Shown here one piece after another: positions 29,937 through 63,896 of a stretch of 64,000 bases of DNA (position 1 is the first letter of the stretch; every line of letters begins with the position of its first letter). The notes beneath the pieces are model-generated. The model searched no databases. It was not told where the DNA came from and saw only the letters and a list, made by a program, of their open reading frames with translations. A program made the position numbers and the translations under genes. Origin of the DNA: an uncultured Bacteroidaceae bacterium. Lineage in GTDB: Bacteria; Bacteroidota; Bacteroidia; Bacteroidales; Bacteroidaceae. Where the stretch lies: positions 16,685 through 80,684 of the forward strand of contig CAJOHO010000002.1 in NCBI GenBank assembly GCA_905234555.1. The letters are read 5' to 3'.

Positions 29937-30170
29937 ATGACACAGATTGTTGTAAACGTATCCGACAGCAGCATTGTTCCTGGGCTTCGGAAAGTGCTGA
30001 GCCGCATTGGCGGTGTAGAGAAAGTGCAGGTGGTGAGGGAAAAACCAAGGAAGCCGTCTGCACGCCAGAGATTTCTTGGAGAACTGCGCCATGCGGTAGG
30101 GCAGGCCAAAGACTTCAAGGAGGGAAAAGTTGAATTTAGCACTTGGGAGGAAATGATGAATGAAATATGA
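29937..30170 (+). CDS. Putative type II antitoxin
   Basis: 77-aa ORF overlapping the RelE-like ORF; TATCTTTG promoter element upstream. Confidence 0.6.
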   Translation: MTQIVVNVSDSSIVPGLRKVLSRIGGVEKVQVVREKPRKPSARQRFLGELRHAVGQAKDFKEGKVEFSTWEEMMNEI

Positions 30171-30501
30171 CTTTCGCCCATCTCCTGATTTCATCAAGGG
30201 TGTCAAAGCCTTGGCAAAACGCTATCCGTCGCTGAAGACAGACTTGCAGGAATTGCGCAACAGCCTGGAACAAAACCCTGAGCAAGGCATAGACTTGGGC
30301 GGTGGCTTGCGCAAGGTGCGACTGAATATCCGTAGCAAGGGCCGTGGTAAGGCTGGCGGTGCAAGAGTTATCACCTTCAACATTATTATTTCAAAGAGCG
30401 ATATGGTGATAGCATTGGTATATATCTACGACAAGGCAGACGCATCAAGTGTTAAGAACGATGTTATGCGCAGCATTGTAAAAGAAATGGGATTGCTATG
30501 A
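30160..30501 (+). CDS. RelE/ParE-superfamily toxin-like protein
   Basis: 113 aa; PDFIKGVKALAKRYPSLKTDLQEL...GGGLRKVRLNIRSKGRGKAGGARVITF...LVYIYDKAD. Confidence 0.7.
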   Translation: MKYDFRPSPDFIKGVKALAKRYPSLKTDLQELRNSLEQNPEQGIDLGGGLRKVRLNIRSKGRGKAGGARVITFNIIISKSDMVIALVYIYDKADASSVKNDVMRSIVKEMGLL

Positions 30502-30667
30502 CGTCCTACAGATATGTCATGTACTGGTTCTGACACACCGTTCTCATCTGTCCCCCTCCCACAACATCTTCACGCTATGAATCTAAATTTTTCTTGATAT
30601 ATACGTCGATTTTCTTGGATTCTTGAAAGTTTTTTTGTACCTTTGCAGCAGTAAAACAGTCAAAGTT

Positions 30668-31321
30668 ATGCCAAGAAAGAAGAGAGGCCTACCGTATAAG
30701 TTGCTGCCCCGTCCCACAAAGGACGAAAACGGACAGCCCTTGCTCTATGCCCGTCCGGCCATAGACATTAGGTATCCCATGGGCTTTCTTGATGACTTCT
30801 GCCACGACCATCGTGGCATGCATTCCGGTGAACTGACGCGTGCTTTTGAGTGTTTTCTCGACGTTGCAGCCATCCACATGAAGAAAGGTGAGCGCATAGA
30901 CACGCCCATAGGCAGTTTTGCGGTGAAGCTTCGTCTTGATGGCGACTACTCTGACCCCAAGAAGGTGAAGACAAAGAATGTACAGTATGCTGGCATAGAG
31001 TTCATTCCGTCCAAAGACTTTGTCAAGGCCTTGGAAAGCCAGCTGAAAGAAGGTTTCGTCTATAGGCCCGACCGTGTTCATACTAAATCGATGCAGACGC
31101 TGCGCGAAGAGGGCACCATCGATGAGGCCCTGCAGAAGTGCTTAGAGCGTAGAAACTTCACTATCCACACGTTCTGCTATTACAGCGATATGAAATACTC
31201 TACTGCCAGAGATTATCTGAACAAGCTCTGCAAAGGCGATCCGCCACTGTTGCAGAAAAGAAAATTCGGCACCTCGATGCTCTTCTCACCCTATCGTGAA
31301 AAAGAAGAGGAAAAAAAGTAG
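30668..31321 (+). CDS. HU/IHF-like DNA-binding protein with a C-terminal helical extension
   Basis: HU-like fold pattern with R/K-rich N-terminus; TACCTTTG promoter element at ~30638. Confidence 0.6.
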   Translation: MPRKKRGLPYKLLPRPTKDENGQPLLYARPAIDIRYPMGFLDDFCHDHRGMHSGELTRAFECFLDVAAIHMKKGERIDTPIGSFAVKLRLDGDYSDPKKVKTKNVQYAGIEFIPSKDFVKALESQLKEGFVYRPDRVHTKSMQTLREEGTIDEALQKCLERRNFTIHTFCYYSDMKYSTARDYLNKLCKGDPPLLQKRKFGTSMLFSPYREKEEEKK

Positions 31322-31324
31322 GAA

Positions 31325-31412
31325 CACGCCGCCCGCCGCTTGATTGAGCGCCGCCCGCCGTCCAATCAGACGGCGGGCGGCGCTATATTGGACGGCGCCC
31401 GCCGTCTTCTTA
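31325..31412. repeat. Four GC-rich 22-bp units (16+6) including a perfect 16-bp-stem hairpin
   Basis: CACGCCGCCCGCCGCT-TGATTG / AGCGCCGCCCGCCGTC-CAATCA / GACGGCGGGCGGCGCT-ATATTG / GACGGCGCCCGCCGTC-TTCTTA. Confidence 0.85.
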
Positions 31413-31417
31413 CGAAA

Positions 31418-31527
31418 CGGCACCTCCTTCCCTATAAGGCGGCACCTTCTCCCCTCCCATCCCGCCACTTCGCCCCTGCCTATCGCCACCTTTGTTTCTT
31501 TCGTCCCGCCACTTCGTCTCCCAAAGT
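31418..31527. repeat. Five further degenerate 22-bp units
   Basis: CGGCACCTCCTTCCCT-ATAAGG / CGGCACCTTCTCCCCT-CCCATC / CCGCCACTTCGCCCCT-GCCTAT / CGCCACCTTTGTTTCT-TTCGTC / CCGCCACTTCGTCTCC-CAAAGT. Confidence 0.75.
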
Positions 31528-31599: not shown

Positions 31600-31685
31600 A
31601 ACAAAAACTCCCACCGAAGCGGGAGTATAGGTTTTACCCTTCGGCCACTACGGCCTTATTGTGATAAGATGTAGGAAATCTTACT
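31600..31685 (-). ncRNA. tracrRNA of the type II-C CRISPR-Cas9 system
   Basis: Anti-repeat 31659-31677 (ttgtgataagatgtaggaa) is 16/19 identical to repeat 5' half; then GGCC-GTAGT-GGCC stem and terminator CTCCCGCTTCGGTGGGAGTTTTT (31625-31603). Confidence 0.85.
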
Positions 31686-31689
31686 GGTG

Positions 31690-31720
31690 CAAAATTACAA
31701 ATTTATTTGGTGATATCAAA
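31690..31720 (-). promoter_or_regulatory. tracrRNA promoter, Bacteroidetes type
   Basis: Minus strand TTTG (31720-31717), 19 nt, TAATTTTG (31697-31690). Confidence 0.7.
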
Positions 31721-31764: not shown

Positions 31765-34700
31765 ATGGAACGAATACTAGGTATAGACACAGGTACAAAC
31801 AGTCTTGGATGGGCTATTGTTGATAAGGAAGATGGTATAACTACTTTGGTCGCAAAAGGAACAAATATCTTTGCCGAAGGTGTAAAAATGGATCAAGGGA
31901 AGGAGTTGTCAAAGGCTGCAGAGAGAACAGACCATCGAGCCTTGAGACGCATTTACTGGCGCAGAAAGGTGAGAAAGATTCGTCTGCTGACAGTCTTGAT
32001 GGAGAATGGATTGTGTCCGCTTGTAACAAAGGAAGATTTGCGCAAGTGGAGATTGAAGGGAGAATATCCCATGAGCGAAGAGTTTATAAACTGGCAGCGA
32101 ACAGAGGATAAGGAGAATGTTAACCCTTATCGTTTTCGTTTTATCTGTCTGACACAAAAACTCGATATGAGCGATGCAACTCAGCGACACATACTCGGAC
32201 GTGCTCTTTATCATTTAAATCAGCGTAGAGGTTTCCTAAGCAATCGTAAAGATACAACACAAGAGTCAGAAGGCACCGTTAGTCAAGACATTGACAAGCT
32301 GTCGGAGTCGATAGAAGCGAGCGGTTGCAAATATCTGGGAGAATACTTCTTTCATCTCTATGAGCGCGGAGAGAAAATAAGAAGTCATTACACTTCACGT
32401 AAGGACCATTACATGAAAGAGTTTCTTGCAATTTGTGAAATGCAGGAACTTGATGAGAGTTTGGTGGGCAAACTAAGGAAAGCCATATTCTTTCAACGAC
32501 CTTTGAAGTCTCAGAAGGGATTGGTTGGCAAATGTACTTTCGAAAAGAACAAGAGTCGCTGTCCGGTTTCGCATCCGTTGTTCGAGGAGTTTCGCATGTA
32601 TCAGTTCCTTAACAGTGTCAAGGTAGCTGTTAGTACATTATATGAAAGTGGGGAGCGCTTCCTTACCGAGGAAGAGAAACAAAAGGCCATTCCGATGTTC
32701 CTTCGCAAGTCTAAACAGAAGTTTGTTTTCGAGGACATAGCCAAGGCCGTTGCAGGCAAGAACAACTATTGTGGTATGCACGATGCTGAACAGAAGGCTT
32801 ACCGATTCAATTATACTTTGGATACTAGTGTCTCTGGCTGTCCTGTGCTGGCGGGTCTGACCGATATCTTCGGAGGAAATTGGCTTGATGCCGTTTGTGA
32901 AGTTTATACCAAGGGTGAGGGAAAGAGTCGCTATGAGGTAATGAACGATATATGGCATGTGCTGTTTTCTTTCGATGATAACGACAGGTTGAAGGAATTT
33001 GCTATGGCTCGTCTTCAGTTGTCAGAGGAAGATGCATCGAAATTCTGCAAGATTCATATCGCATCCGACTATGCCTCACTCAGTCTGAAAGCCATTCGCA
33101 AAATTCTTCCGTTCATGAAGAATTACGGACTGATATATTCCAAGGCAGTTTTCCTGGCCAACCTTGGAGAAGTCGTGCCTCGATACATTTGGGAATTAAA
33201 AGAAACGCGAGATGCACTTGTGGAGAACGTTATCAACGTAATGAATAATCTACAGAACGTTCATGATACAGCCACACTCGAAGAATGTGTAAAAGGGTAT
33301 CTAAAGGATAGGTATAACGTAGATGACAAATCACTCGAAAAGCTCTATCATCCCTCAATGATTGACCCTTATCCACGTCAGAAACCCAACGACGATGGTA
33401 TTTATCAATTGGGCTCTCCACGTATTAGTAGTGTTAAGAATCCAATGGCTATGCATTCGATGTTCAGACTGCGCAAGGTGGTGAATCTCTTGCTTAAGAA
33501 TGGATATATAGACGAGGACACTAAGGTGCATATTGAATTCTCACGCGATCTCAATGATGCTAACAAGCGCAAAGCCATACAACGATGGAATAAAGACAAC
33601 GAAAACAATAGGAACAAGTGTAGGGAAGAGATAAAAAAACTCTACAAGGAACATTGTGGAAAAGATATTGAACCCTCTGATACGGATATTTTGAAGTATC
33701 AACTCTGGGAAGAGCAAAACCATATCTGTGTCTATACCGGAGACACCATCTGTATCTGTGATTTCCTTGGTGAGAACCCTGCCTATGACATCGAACACAC
33801 CATTCCGAGAAGCGTTGGCGGAGATACCACCAAAGAGAATCTTACGTTGTGTAGCAGTAAATTTAATCGTGAAACAAAAAAGACAAAGAAGCCTTCGGAC
33901 CTCGCAAACCATGAGGAGATTCTTCAGCGCATTGAGCATTGGAAAGACAACTACGTAGAACTGGATAAGAGAATTCGCTCGCTGAAGAGAAAAACGGCTG
34001 CCAACAAGGAACAGAAAGACCAAAACATACAGAATCGCCACTATCTGAAGTTGCAACGCGACTATTGGCTTGGAAAGTATAAACGTTTTACGATGACAGA
34101 GATTCCCGAAGGATTCTCTCGTCGTCAGGGAACAGACATTAGCGTAATCTCTCGCTTCGCACGAATGTATCTGAAGTCAGTCTTCAAACAGGTGTATATT
34201 GTTAAAGGCATCGCCACCTCGGATTTTCGAAAGATATGGGGCATTCAAAATGTCTATGAGAAGAAAAAACGTGACAATCACGTCCACCATTGTATTGATG
34301 CCATCACCATTGCATGCATAGACAAGGGTGAGTATGATAAACTTGCCCAATACTATCACGATGAGGAAAACCACAAGTGGTATGGATACGACAAAGCGGA
34401 CTTCCCAAAGCCATGGCCAACTTTTGTTGAAGATGTCAAGAAAGTACAAGACGAACTCCTTGTGGCACATTACTCAAAAGACAATATGCCCAAACAGTCG
34501 AAACGCAATGTTAGAAATCGAGACGGCAAGATATTAAGAAACAGTCGTGGAGAAAAAGTGCAGATGCGAGGAGATACGGCACGTGGTTCGCTCCATAAGG
34601 ATACTTATTATGGAGCGATTAAAAGAGATGATGAAATAAAGTATGTAGTAAGAAAATCTGTATCTTCACTTTCGGATGCAGACATTGAGAATATTGTTGA

Positions 34701-35394
34701 CGAGGCTGTAAAAGAAATAATAAAAACTGCCATTCTGCTTCATGGAAGTTTGAAGAATGCGGTAGAAAAAGGTCTTTGGATGAATGAGAGCAAAGGTATT
34801 AAAATAAATAAGGTAAGGTGCTTTGTAAGTAAAGCTCCGATTATTATTACTTCTCATCGCGACCTGTCCAGAAAGGAATATAAACAAAACCTACTTGCAT
34901 GGAATGACAGCAACTATCTTGTTGCAATCTATATTGGCAAAAATGAGAAGGGGAAAGAAGACCGAGAGTTTGAAGAGATAAACCTACTTAATGCCGCAAG
35001 GTATTATAGAAGAAGTAATGAAAGAGATACGACAGGAGATCCCATTGTACCAATAAAGAGTCAGAAAGGATATCCGTTGGTTTATAAATTGTCAATAGGT
35101 ACAATGGTACTCCTCTATGATAACAACCCAGAAGAAATTTGGGAAATGGATAGAGCTAACCTTCAAAAGCGTCTATATGTCATCAATGCGTTGTCTTTGA
35201 CGGATGGCAGAATGATGTTGATGCATCATCAGGAAGCACGCCAAGCTACAGAGGCAAAAAAAGAAATGGGCGCATATTCGTATGATGGAAACTTAAAGCC
35301 TGTTCTACGTATTACGTTCAATAGATTCAAGGCTCTTGTTCAAGGTGTAGATTTTGAGATTAACGATTTAGGTGAGATAAGGAGGTTGATATGA
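31765..35394 (+). CDS. cas9: Type II-C CRISPR-associated endonuclease Cas9 (1209 aa)
   Basis: RuvC-I (ILGIDTGTNSLGWAI), Arg-rich bridge helix, RuvC-II (VHIEFSRDLN), HNH (YDIEHTIPRSVGGDTTKENLTLCSSKFNRE), RuvC-III (HHCIDAITIACID). Confidence 0.98.
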   Translation: MERILGIDTGTNSLGWAIVDKEDGITTLVAKGTNIFAEGVKMDQGKELSKAAERTDHRALRRIYWRRKVRKIRLLTVLMENGLCPLVTKEDLRKWRLKGEYPMSEEFINWQRTEDKENVNPYRFRFICLTQKLDMSDATQRHILGRALYHLNQRRGFLSNRKDTTQESEGTVSQDIDKLSESIEASGCKYLGEYFFHLYERGEKIRSHYTSRKDHYMKEFLAICEMQELDESLVGKLRKAIFFQRPLKSQKGLVGKCTFEKNKSRCPVSHPLFEEFRMYQFLNSVKVAVSTLYESGERFLTEEEKQKAIPMFLRKSKQKFVFEDIAKAVAGKNNYCGMHDAEQKAYRFNYTLDTSVSGCPVLAGLTDIFGGNWLDAVCEVYTKGEGKSRYEVMNDIWHVLFSFDDNDRLKEFAMARLQLSEEDASKFCKIHIASDYASLSLKAIRKILPFMKNYGLIYSKAVFLANLGEVVPRYIWELKETRDALVENVINVMNNLQNVHDTATLEECVKGYLKDRYNVDDKSLEKLYHPSMIDPYPRQKPNDDGIYQLGSPRISSVKNPMAMHSMFRLRKVVNLLLKNGYIDEDTKVHIEFSRDLNDANKRKAIQRWNKDNENNRNKCREEIKKLYKEHCGKDIEPSDTDILKYQLWEEQNHICVYTGDTICICDFLGENPAYDIEHTIPRSVGGDTTKENLTLCSSKFNRETKKTKKPSDLANHEEILQRIEHWKDNYVELDKRIRSLKRKTAANKEQKDQNIQNRHYLKLQRDYWLGKYKRFTMTEIPEGFSRRQGTDISVISRFARMYLKSVFKQVYIVKGIATSDFRKIWGIQNVYEKKKRDNHVHHCIDAITIACIDKGEYDKLAQYYHDEENHKWYGYDKADFPKPWPTFVEDVKKVQDELLVAHYSKDNMPKQSKRNVRNRDGKILRNSRGEKVQMRGDTARGSLHKDTYYGAIKRDDEIKYVVRKSVSSLSDADIENIVDEAVKEIIKTAILLHGSLKNAVEKGLWMNESKGIKINKVRCFVSKAPIIITSHRDLSRKEYKQNLLAWNDSNYLVAIYIGKNEKGKEDREFEEINLLNAARYYRRSNERDTTGDPIVPIKSQKGYPLVYKLSIGTMVLLYDNNPEEIWEMDRANLQKRLYVINALSLTDGRMMLMHHQEARQATEAKKEMGAYSYDGNLKPVLRITFNRFKALVQGVDFEINDLGEIRRLI

Positions 35395-36278
35395 TTAAGC
35401 AAACATTGATGTTTACGTCTCCTGTATCTTTGTCTTTGAAGGACCATCAAATCGTCATCACATTCAAGGACAATAAGGATTCTGTAACCCGCCCGATAGA
35501 AGATATCGGCTTCGTTGTCATAGAAAATCCGCAAGTAAGCATATCCGTGCCATTGCTCAATGAATTGGCTGATAACAACGTGTCTGTTATCTTCTGCGAC
35601 AAAAAGCAGATGCCCCGAACAATGCTGATGACGCTGGAAGGCAACACTACTCAGCAGGAAAGCTACAAGTACCAAATGGAAGCTTCTGCTCCTTTGAAGA
35701 AGAACGTCTGGAAACAATTGGTGGAATGCAAAATCAGGAATCAGGCTCTTTTGTTGAATTCATTAGGAAAAAACGGTGATGCATTGAAACCTTATTATAT
35801 GAATGTGAAGTCAGGTGATACCGATAATCGAGAAGGAGCTGCTGCGCGGGAATACTGGAGCAGAATATTTTACGATGGTTTCAAAAGAGAACGGGAAGGG
35901 GAGTCGCCAAATAACCTGCTGAACTATGGTTATACTATTCTAAGAGCAGCAGTTGCTCGTGCATTGATTGGCTCTGGGCTTTATCCAGCCTTTGGTGTGT
36001 TTCATCGTAACCGTTATAATGCATTCCCGTTAGCTGATGATGTAATGGAACCATATCGGCCTTTCGTTGATGAAATTGTGTATCATTTATATTACGATGG
36101 GGCTGTCAGCGAGCTGGACAGTCAGTCGAAAGGAAAACTCTTGAGGGTGTTGTTCTCAGACGTGAGAATGGGAAAAGTAACACGTCCCTTGGAGAATGCG
36201 CTGTCATTGACCACAGCGTCACTACTGAGGATGTATAAGGGAGAAACAGATAAATTGTCATTGCCTATGATAACATGA
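35391..36278 (+). CDS. cas1: CRISPR-associated endonuclease Cas1
   Basis: ATGA overlap with cas9; type II Cas1 motifs (LNYGYTILRAAVARALIGSGLYPAFGVFHRN, MEPYRPFVDE). Confidence 0.97.
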   Translation: MIKQTLMFTSPVSLSLKDHQIVITFKDNKDSVTRPIEDIGFVVIENPQVSISVPLLNELADNNVSVIFCDKKQMPRTMLMTLEGNTTQQESYKYQMEASAPLKKNVWKQLVECKIRNQALLLNSLGKNGDALKPYYMNVKSGDTDNREGAAAREYWSRIFYDGFKREREGESPNNLLNYGYTILRAAVARALIGSGLYPAFGVFHRNRYNAFPLADDVMEPYRPFVDEIVYHLYYDGAVSELDSQSKGKLLRVLFSDVRMGKVTRPLENALSLTTASLLRMYKGETDKLSLPMIT

Positions 36279-36616
36279 GTGAAGTCCGATTAAATGCATA
36301 TCATATTATGTGGCTGTTTGTCTTCTTCGATTTGCCTGTCGTAACACAGAAAGAACGTAAGATAGCTGCGCTCTTTAGGAAAAATCTGATGAAGGACGGC
36401 TTTGTGATGTTGCAATATTCGGTTTATATTCGTCATTGTGCATCATACGAGAGTCAAATGGTACACATAAAACGAATTAAAGCCATTGCGCCAGAAACAG
36501 GTATGGTAAGTATATTGAGTGTGACAGATAAGCAATATGGTGATATCGTGAACTTTTGGGGAAAGGAAAAAAAGAAAAAAGTGCCGACGGAGCCTTTACA
36601 GTTAGAATTTTTTTAG
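36275..36616 (+). CDS. cas2: CRISPR-associated endoribonuclease Cas2
   Basis: ATGA overlap with cas1; MWLFVFFDLPVVTQKERK, 113 aa. Confidence 0.96.
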   Translation: MSEVRLNAYHIMWLFVFFDLPVVTQKERKIAALFRKNLMKDGFVMLQYSVYIRHCASYESQMVHIKRIKAIAPETGMVSILSVTDKQYGDIVNFWGKEKKKKVPTEPLQLEFF

Positions 36617-36624
36617 TACATTTG
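36617..36624 (+). promoter_or_regulatory. Putative leader promoter -7 element for the CRISPR array
   Basis: TACATTTG just after the cas2 stop, ~85 nt before repeat 1; -33 element weak. Confidence 0.5.
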
Positions 36625-36708
36625 CAAACAGAAATCCACATCAGATGCCACTTCTTAGACAAGAAAAAGCATATAACTGCTTGTAATATAGGATAATAAT
36701 CAACCTAT

Positions 36709-38455
36709 GTTGTGGTTTGATGTAGGAATAGAGAGATAAACAACACTTCACCAGACGGGGATTCGCCTTGAAGGTTGTGGTTTGATGTAGGAATAGAGAG
36801 ATAAACAACCCCTGCCCGCTCCGAGAGTTGTTCCTGTGTGTTGTGGTTTGATGTAGGAATAGAGAGATAAACAACCCCATCACGCGCTTCACCATTGCGC
36901 CCAGCGTTGTGGTTTGATGTAGGAATAGAGAGATAAACAACAGGCGTGCATCCTGAGCATCCGCAAGCACGGTTGTGGTTTGATGTAGGAATAGAGAGAT
37001 AAACAACGCCGGGCCACTACGACGCGCAAGGGCAGTAGTTGTGGTTTGATGTAGGAATAGAGAGATAAACAACATGTTTCCAGAAGGTTACACCGTTAAT
37101 TCAGTTGTGGTTTGATGTAGGAATAGAGAGATAAACAACTGGACGAACCAAACAATTCAATCCAGCGGCGTTGTGGTTTGATGTAGGAATAGAGAGATAA
37201 ACAACGACGGATGATGATCCTGACTGGCAGGCTCGTTGTGGTTTGATGTAGGAATAGAGAGATAAACAACTTGCGGCCACGGAATGAAAGTGGATATTCC
37301 GTTGTGGTTTGATGTAGGAATAGAGAGATAAACAACCAATCACTGGTATGTGGGGTGTACGTTTCGTTGTGGTTTGATGTAGGAATAGAGAGATAAACAA
37401 CGCTGGCCTGCGAAGGTCGGCGGCTCTTTTTGTTGTGGTTTGATGTAGGAATAGAGAGATAAACAACCTACAGCGGCTGCAGGTCCAATCGTTGAAGGTT
37501 GTGGTTTGATGTAGGAATAGAGAGATAAACAACATTTCAAGTCAATGCCCTATCCCGACGGCTGTTGTGGTTTGATGTAGGAATAGAGAGATAAACAACC
37601 GGCGCAGGGTGAGCAGGTCGCGGGCGAGCGTTGTGGTTTGATGTAGGAATAGAGAGATAAACAACGCTGGAGCACGCTGAAGATGAACCATTCCTGTTGT
37701 GGTTTGATGTAGGAATAGAGAGATAAACAACTCATCATCGGTGAGGAGAAGCCGGCGCAGGTTGTGGTTTGATGTAGGAATAGAGAGATAAACAACCATC
37801 AAAGACCGCCACGTTGAGCCGAGTGCGTTGTGGTTTGATGTAGGAATAGAGAGATAAACAACTGACCGCCACCTCCGAACAAATCCCCTGAAGTTGTGGT
37901 TTGATGTAGGAATAGAGAGATAAACAACGGAGAACGGCGACGAGCCGATGGCCAGCGCGTTGTGGTTTGATGTAGGAATAGAGAGATAAACAACCATCAC
38001 ATCCGCAGGGTGGCAGAAGTATTGGTTGTGGTTTGATGTAGGAATAGAGAGATAAACAACTTCATGCTGCCTCTCAACCGTGAGGCCATCGTTGTGGTTT
38101 GATGTAGGAATAGAGAGATAAACAACCTGCTCTAGATGTTGTCGCAAACTGCTATCGTTGTGGTTTGATGTAGGAATAGAGAGATAAACAACGTATTGGC
38201 AGTACCTACCAGACCGCCAAGTGTTGTGGTTTGATGTAGGAATAGAGAGATAAACAACTTCGGGGTTTATCGCCACCTTATCCTTAATGTTGTGGTTTGA
38301 TGTAGGAATAGAGAGATAAACAACATATCGTAATGAACCCGCCCTTCTCTCATGTTGTGGTTTGATGTAGGAATAGAGAGATAAACAACTCAACACCAAG
38401 CGCATTGTAATGTTCTACCGTTGTGGTTTGATGTAGGAATAGAGAGATAAACAAC
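36709..38455 (+). CRISPR. CRISPR array: 27 repeats of 36 bp and 26 spacers of 29-30 bp
   Basis: GTTGTGGTTTGATGTAGGAATAGAGAGATAAACAAC at 65/66-bp spacing, all copies read as identical; crRNA strand + from anti-repeat orientation. Confidence 0.99.
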
Positions 38456-39809: not shown

Positions 39810-39872
39810 ACTGTTGACTGACGTCTTCTTCCTTCGCACCTCGGCCATTCAAGCATGCTTGATGGCTCCGTC
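39810..39872 (-). repeat. Interspersed palindromic element R, copy 4
   Basis: minus: ctgacggagccatcaagcatgcttgaatggccgaggtgcgaaggaagaagacgtcagtcaac. Confidence 0.5.
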
Positions 39873-39891
39873 AGTTATTCTAAGAACGAAG

Positions 39892-39928
39892 CAGGCGCAT
39901 CGCCTGAATTGAGCAAGCGATGCGCCTG
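39892..39928. terminator. Strong hairpin, possible terminator or processing site
   Basis: caggcgcatcgc ctgaattgagcaa gcgatgcgcctg, perfect 12-bp stem. Confidence 0.5.
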
Positions 39929-39948
39929 AATGGAGCTGACGATATGTC

Positions 39949-63763: not shown

Positions 63764-63829
63764 ACTGAACCCAAACGAAGGGCTGACTGAACCCAAACGA
63801 AAGGCCGACTGAACCCAAACGAAGGACTG
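63764..63829. repeat. Three 22-bp direct repeats in the predicted gyrA 5'UTR
   Basis: ACTGAACCCAAACGAA + GGGCTG / AGGCCG / GGACTG. Confidence 0.95.
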
Positions 63830-63896
63830 ACGGACCTATATATAATAAGGTATAGGGATTTGGAACAGCAGAAACGATATTTATTAAGATACAAAA

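Follow-up and report, generated by a model that had tools for sequence, protein, structure and literature searches.

What kind of element is the run of nine 22-bp units that directly follows an HU-like gene in the window, the 64,000-nt stretch analysed here from the draft genome of an uncultured Bacteroidaceae bacterium? All of the structural features first reported for this array, namely the nine units, their coordinates, the 5-nt gap after unit 4 and the perfect reverse complementarity of the 16-bp cores of units 2 and 3, are present exactly as described (Table 1). It also abuts the stop codon of the HU-like gene as proposed, beginning 3 nt past the TAG (31319–31321). Identity at lag 22 over the whole array is 0.519, compared with 0.297 ± 0.031 in dinucleotide shuffles, a level reached by none of 2000; this is equally true for units 1–4 (0.576; 0/2000) and units 5–9 (0.534; 0/2000) taken alone, and lag 44 is as strong as lag 22. 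The claimed 22-bp phasing is thus confirmed, and with it the placement of the sites on one face of the DNA. Within part 1 of the window array, the half-site consensus is GACGGCG around a 2-bp centre, with unit 3 inverted relative to units 1, 2 and 4, whilst part 2 is shifted by 5 nt relative to the phase of part 1.

Table 1. Coordinates of the array and adjoining features in the window
Feature	Position	Strand	Description
Probable promoter of HU-like gene	30615..30645	+	TTGG 30615–30618, 19-nt spacer, TACCTTTG 30638–30645
HU-HIG gene	30668..31321	+	217 aa; HU domain residues 8–132, C-terminal winged helix 148–208
Array part 1	31325..31412	.	Four 22-bp units, each a 16-bp quasi-palindrome plus 6-bp spacer
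Array part 2	31418..31527	.	Five 22-bp units rich in pyrimidines; plus strand with much C and little G
tracrRNA of type II-C CRISPR system	31600..31695 (about)	-	Array neighbour, separate from array

The array is not coding, as had been maintained from the outset, and nor is it a CRISPR array, whose repeats would be near-identical, longer than ~20 nt and separated by unique spacers; here, the 16-bp cores diverge and the spacers are of 6 bp, again in keeping with the original reading. An intrinsic terminator was similarly ruled out, as no plus-strand stem–loop with a U-run occurs within the array. The further statement that the cores degrade needs correction, in that the array has two parts and both are conserved, the first with palindromic GC cores and the second rich in pyrimidines.

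The product of the HU-like gene is an HU-HIG protein, i.e. an HU domain fused to a winged helix (wHTH), matching the PF18291 profile at E = 2.8e-11 (44 bits, against a curated cut-off of 26.2). Its AlphaFold model (pLDDT 86) displays an HU fold plus a wHTH, with a putative DNA-binding protein of Bacteroides vulgatus (4fmr) as the top Foldseek match, followed by HU/IHF proteins and ArsR-type wHTH proteins. The HU-HIG family is reportedly expanded in Bacteroidetes, with a proposed role against invading DNA. The promoter in Table 1 is a probable one, by comparison with the Bacteroidales promoter consensus. Directly upstream of the gene is a RelE-like toxin gene (30160–30501; PF06296, borderline at the cut-off). 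As the HU-like gene lies upstream on the plus strand and the tracrRNA downstream on the minus strand, the array is situated between two convergent genes. The tracrRNA, which is upstream of cas9, has an anti-repeat, GATTTCCTACATC, that pairs with GATGTAGGAA of the CRISPR repeat, and an intrinsic terminator at 31626–31607 on the minus strand; the type II-C-like CRISPR-Cas locus itself (31768–38455) comprises cas9, then cas1-/cas2-like genes and about 26 repeats. Whilst the preliminary description was correct in placing the array between the HU-like gene and the tracrRNA, the proximity to the latter is incidental, since no conserved neighbour gene was found beside HU-linked arrays.

With regard to distribution, the HU-HIG protein is sporadic within the family, occurring in 19 of 400 genomes (E ≤ 1e-8). 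A GTDB genome search returned 80 relatives, nearly all from Prevotella/Prevotellaceae or other Bacteroidales, and mostly from rumen and gut MAGs with a few isolates. No HU relatives were found in viral contigs, phages or plasmids, making a phage or plasmid module unlikely, and this candidate was rejected. A search for similar arrays downstream of homologous HU-like genes had been proposed as a check; when 260 bp after the stop codon was scanned for the top lag between 12 and 39, this was exactly 22 in 74 of 77 loci, compared with 26 of 1416 random stretches of the same loci, and no 22-bp signal was present upstream of the gene. In a reduced set of 35 arrays less than 80 % alike, which was chosen partly by half-site similarity and so is not an independent test, the top lag was 22 in every case; for stretches that follow other genes of these loci, this was so in 8 of 208. 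Identity among the corresponding HU proteins is 36–89 % (median 49 %), and the window array shares at most 74 % identity (median 44 %) with the others. Across relatives, the layout is retained and the sequence is not. The loci compared are related by descent, most genomes are MAGs, and some tallies were obtained with in-house threshold scans and rough ORF calling.

Part 1 in these relatives usually comprises four 22-bp units, each a 16-bp quasi-palindrome of the form N5-CG-nn-CG-N5 followed by 6 AT-rich bp. CG-nn-CG is nearly constant between loci and N5 varies, with 2.96 of 5 half-site positions identical within a locus compared with 1.66 between loci. The commonest core centre is CC in units 1, 2 and 4 but GG in unit 3, which is hence inverted, and in most relatives an A-rich-GGT(T) motif stands ahead of unit 1. 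Part 2 consists of 22-bp units with TCTCCCTG-like pyrimidines, and has a top lag of 22 in 31 of 35 arrays; its TCCCY is mostly found at phase 16–17 of part 1, which is the place of the AT-rich spacers, so the phase of the first part mostly carries on into the second. A generic search for CGnnCG at 22-bp intervals was also run over the 400 genomes, and is not used as an element count because it catches unrelated 22-bp families too.

Half-site similarity tracks the wHTH when the HU domain is controlled for (partial Mantel r = 0.26, with 3 of 2000 permutations as high), and shows no association with the HU domain given the wHTH (r = 0.065; 289/2000). Residues 177–178, with which the recognition helix starts, come second and third among the 163 positions tested for association with the half-site. 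Many HU positions associate with it as well, so shared ancestry may account for such links, and phylogeny is a confounder of the half-site/protein association. Paralogues within one genome can have different half-sites (L053 versus L061; L057 versus L105, the latter pair being from the cultured strain Prevotella sp. tc2-28).

Genomes possessing the HU-HIG gene often hold the same array elsewhere. In G235, arrays with the cognate core are found at eight places and the HU gene at one; there are four such places in G388 and three in G199, whilst G264 has three arrays matching its own HU gene and five of a second family, for which no HU gene was found in that 69 %-complete MAG. A three-unit pattern gave 172 matches in G269, compared with 2 for a control; at two matches per four-unit array this equates to roughly 80–90 arrays, so that this chromosome probably holds about 80 dispersed copies. 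Nine of ten solo copies retrieved from G269 carry the GGCAGCG core, as does the array beside its HU gene (C42).

These solo copies are variously organised. Those of G235 and G388 consist of a promoter, short leader, array and part 2, and the G199/G264 family has the same arrangement with another promoter-leader; in both, the promoter at the head of these ORF-less copies is of the kind found before the HU-like gene. One solo copy, L257, still contains the 3′-terminal part of the HU ORF, recognised by a profile match that is weak but at the proper position, and is therefore a gene-deleted derivative; some solo copies are thus derivatives that lost the gene and kept promoter and array. Copies in G269 have no shared promoter and begin at the A-rich-GGTT, starting GGTTGGCAGCG and in many cases ending CGCTGCCAACC; several are followed by a second conserved block, CTCCTGAAT..CACCCCATTTCGCTCGTCATCAACAATGCTCA (L279, L281, L283, L286). 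The left boundary of solo copy L259 is sharp when compared with G388, a relative without this copy. The flanks of the site are on different contigs in G388, with no target-site duplication or clean empty site seen, and due to this rearrangement L259 is not usable as proof of simple insertion. Positions 999–1067 of L259 contain a 68-bp sequence with a promoter-like end that recurs many times in the related genomes G388, G420, G222 and G026. Three contigs (L015, L022, L087) end less than 40 nt past the stop codon of the HU gene, which would be expected if dispersed array copies disturb assembly. A Y1 transposase (RAYT) was rejected as general mobiliser because neither G235 nor G199, both with dispersed copies, has a Y1_Tnp match. 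Y1-transposase-like (RAYT-like) genes do stand directly beside HU-HIG genes in L007 and L203.

The 22-bp period extends beyond this family. Within 1.16 Mb scanned of the window's own genome there are 29 noncoding periodic arrays at lag 22, and no other lag between 15 and 30 yields more than 5; in 200 kb from each of two complete relatives there are two lag-22 arrays, and no such noncoding array was found in 150 kb of E. coli. Several sequence families are represented among the own-genome arrays, AAGTACTT and GAGCACGCTC being examples. For HU-HIG genes from other subfamilies, a 22-bp array was present within 1.5 kb in 14 of 39 cases, compared with 29 of 347 own-genome tiles (p about 1e-5); leaving out the ordinary HU genes, which was decided post hoc, gives 14 of 25 (p about 2e-8). 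This suggests that an association with 22-bp arrays may be general for HU-HIG proteins. The genome-wide preference, the sporadic distribution and the gene-free copies in relatives were all overlooked in the preliminary description.

Because layout is kept without sequence, and copies occur across the chromosome in some relatives, the array probably provides docking sites for the adjoining protein. More fully, it is on balance probable, if far from assured, that the linked HU-wHTH protein binds these units as helically phased sites, whose dispersal resembles that of REPINs. Evidence for this comes from the periodicity, the layout, conservation beside the gene, the half-site/wHTH association, the cognate-core solo copies and the gene-deleted derivatives, all of which are seen at the level of sequence; from these we infer binding and wrapping, an autoregulatory or nucleoid role, and the way in which copies spread. 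A dimer would sit on each quasi-palindrome, i.e. on two N5-CG half-sites around 2 bp, with the winged helix reading N5 and the HU part dimerising and bending the DNA. With a spacing of two turns, every site would lie on the same side of the helix, allowing about 180–200 bp to be wrapped in a single nucleoprotein complex beside the protein's own gene. Protein and site would change together, keeping paralogues orthogonal; gene and array would form an accessory unit, and in some relatives the array may spread to intergenic places without the gene, much as REPINs do with their linked gene. Recognition of double-stranded DNA is favoured by the symmetry of the cores, the two-turn spacing, the phase that both parts keep, and the way in which the sites co-vary with the wHTH. 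Conversely, double-stranded sites alone do not require RNA hairpins, the highest pairing between units 2 and 3, or the constant polarity of part 2, and the promoter kept in some solo families is needless for a pure binding site. It also counts against this reading that the linked array is the only copy found in the window's own draft genome, which is 81 % complete.

Rather unlikely as a full account, but the strongest of the alternatives, is a selfish, REPIN/MITE-like dispersed repeat with the array as its cis component, spread by the HU-HIG protein or an unlinked transposase, with any host function secondary. The near-identical solo copies at three to eight places in four genomes and the high-copy family of G269 are as this would predict, as are the promoter and array ends retained by gene-deleted derivatives, the sharp left boundary of L259, the patchy occurrence of the gene and the RAYT-like neighbours in L007 and L203. 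Set against these, the unit contains no transposase, the two genomes without a Y1_Tnp match have dispersed copies all the same, no target-site duplication or clean empty site was seen, and conservation of the layout over such divergent proteins suggests selection. A selfish, REPIN-like component is nonetheless likely for the dispersed copies.

Less probable still is that the array acts as RNA, serving the HU gene as a structured 3′ UTR, mRNA stabiliser or Rho-dependent terminator, in which case the solo copies would be small RNAs. The predicted RNA fold of the region is very stable (z = -7.5), the array separates the HU gene from the convergent tracrRNA, and two solo families retain promoters, although those of G269 share none. 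In the copies of G235/G388, 14–15 of the 16 base pairs between units 2 and 3 are retained, one change in L257 being compensatory, and the sense strand of part 2 is C-rich and G-poor (C > G) in all 35 arrays, giving constant strand polarity. However, the pairing of units 2 and 3, whilst the highest of all unit pairs, is only slightly above that of 1 and 3 or 3 and 4, and an explanation of the inverted units by RNA hairpins alone was therefore rejected. Moreover, no U-run follows the hairpins, and the strict 22-bp phase of both parts is common to many unrelated intergenic arrays. Neutral tandem duplications happening to lie after an HU-HIG gene are very improbable: tandem repeats are common in these genomes, but the two-part layout recurs with unrelated sequence, the preferred noncoding period is 22 bp and not 19–21 or 23–25, the E. 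coli stretch has no such array, and the 74 of 77 loci already contradict chance placement.

As for known systems, we know of no report of an HU-HIG-linked, cognate, helically phased array or of dispersed copies thereof, and a search of open-licence papers on HU-linked or 22-bp repeats returned none. Plasmid iterons and parS/parC centromere arrays are phased direct repeats beside the gene of their binding protein; the present array differs in being chromosomal, without a conserved replication or partition gene nearby, and no relative of its protein was found in a plasmid collection. REP/REPIN-RAYT systems (PMC3733652, PMC3116915) and the Bacteroidetes tnpA_REP subclass 2.6 (PMC6006769) similarly have palindromic intergenic repeats with one copy beside a linked gene and others elsewhere. 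Their partner, however, is a Y1 transposase, whilst here it is an HU-HIG DNA-binding protein, and dispersed intergenic copies are found in relatives but not in the window's own draft genome. Unlike REP/REPIN-RAYT, the array is strictly 22-bp phased, with four units plus a pyrimidine-rich part, and HU-linked arrays have no uniform GTAG or CGTC tag; a GTAG happens to precede the window array, relatives having the A-rich motif in this place. The BrickBuilt MITE (a 23-nt repeat with a leader and a tail bearing small inverted-repeat ends) and the 22/23-nt tandem repeats of Porphyromonas gingivalis resemble the array in being intergenic, of about two turns per unit and from Bacteroidota, and some show promoter activity (PMC4596501). 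BrickBuilt, on the other hand, is a single family of 23-nt units with another layout, in P. gingivalis and P. gulae, and is not described with an HU gene link or a palindromic CG-nn-CG core (PMC4596501). None of REPIN-RAYT, BrickBuilt, the P. gingivalis tandem repeats or tnpA_REP 2.6 has been described with an HU-HIG partner, a four-plus-n layout or this core.

A broader proposal, possible but more tentative than that of cognate binding sites, is that HU-HIG proteins and 22-bp phased arrays constitute an undescribed, Bacteroidota-wide class of protein-linked dispersed sites, each protein having its own fast-changing recognition sequence beside its gene and seeded across the chromosome, where the resulting helically phased nucleoprotein complexes would have an organising or regulatory role in the genome or act selfishly. 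If true, this would provide a concrete DNA target for the expanded HU-HIG family of Bacteroidota, a second route besides REPIN-RAYT by which a gene-linked repeat can spread through a bacterial chromosome, and natural protein/site pairs for reading the winged-helix recognition code; it would also explain 22 bp as the preferred intergenic repeat period in these genomes. Other 22-bp arrays of the window's own genome include dispersed examples (L142, L165, L181, L190, L196, L336) with the AAGTACTT palindrome in AT-rich spacers, one AAGTACTT array being directly upstream of another HU-HIG gene (L199). The window itself contains three near-identical 22-bp units of another sequence family (ACTGAACCCAAACGAAGGGCTG; 63764–63831) just upstream of gyrA, and a second 22-bp periodic intergenic stretch with palindromes (39846–39943) just past the end of a minus-strand gene.
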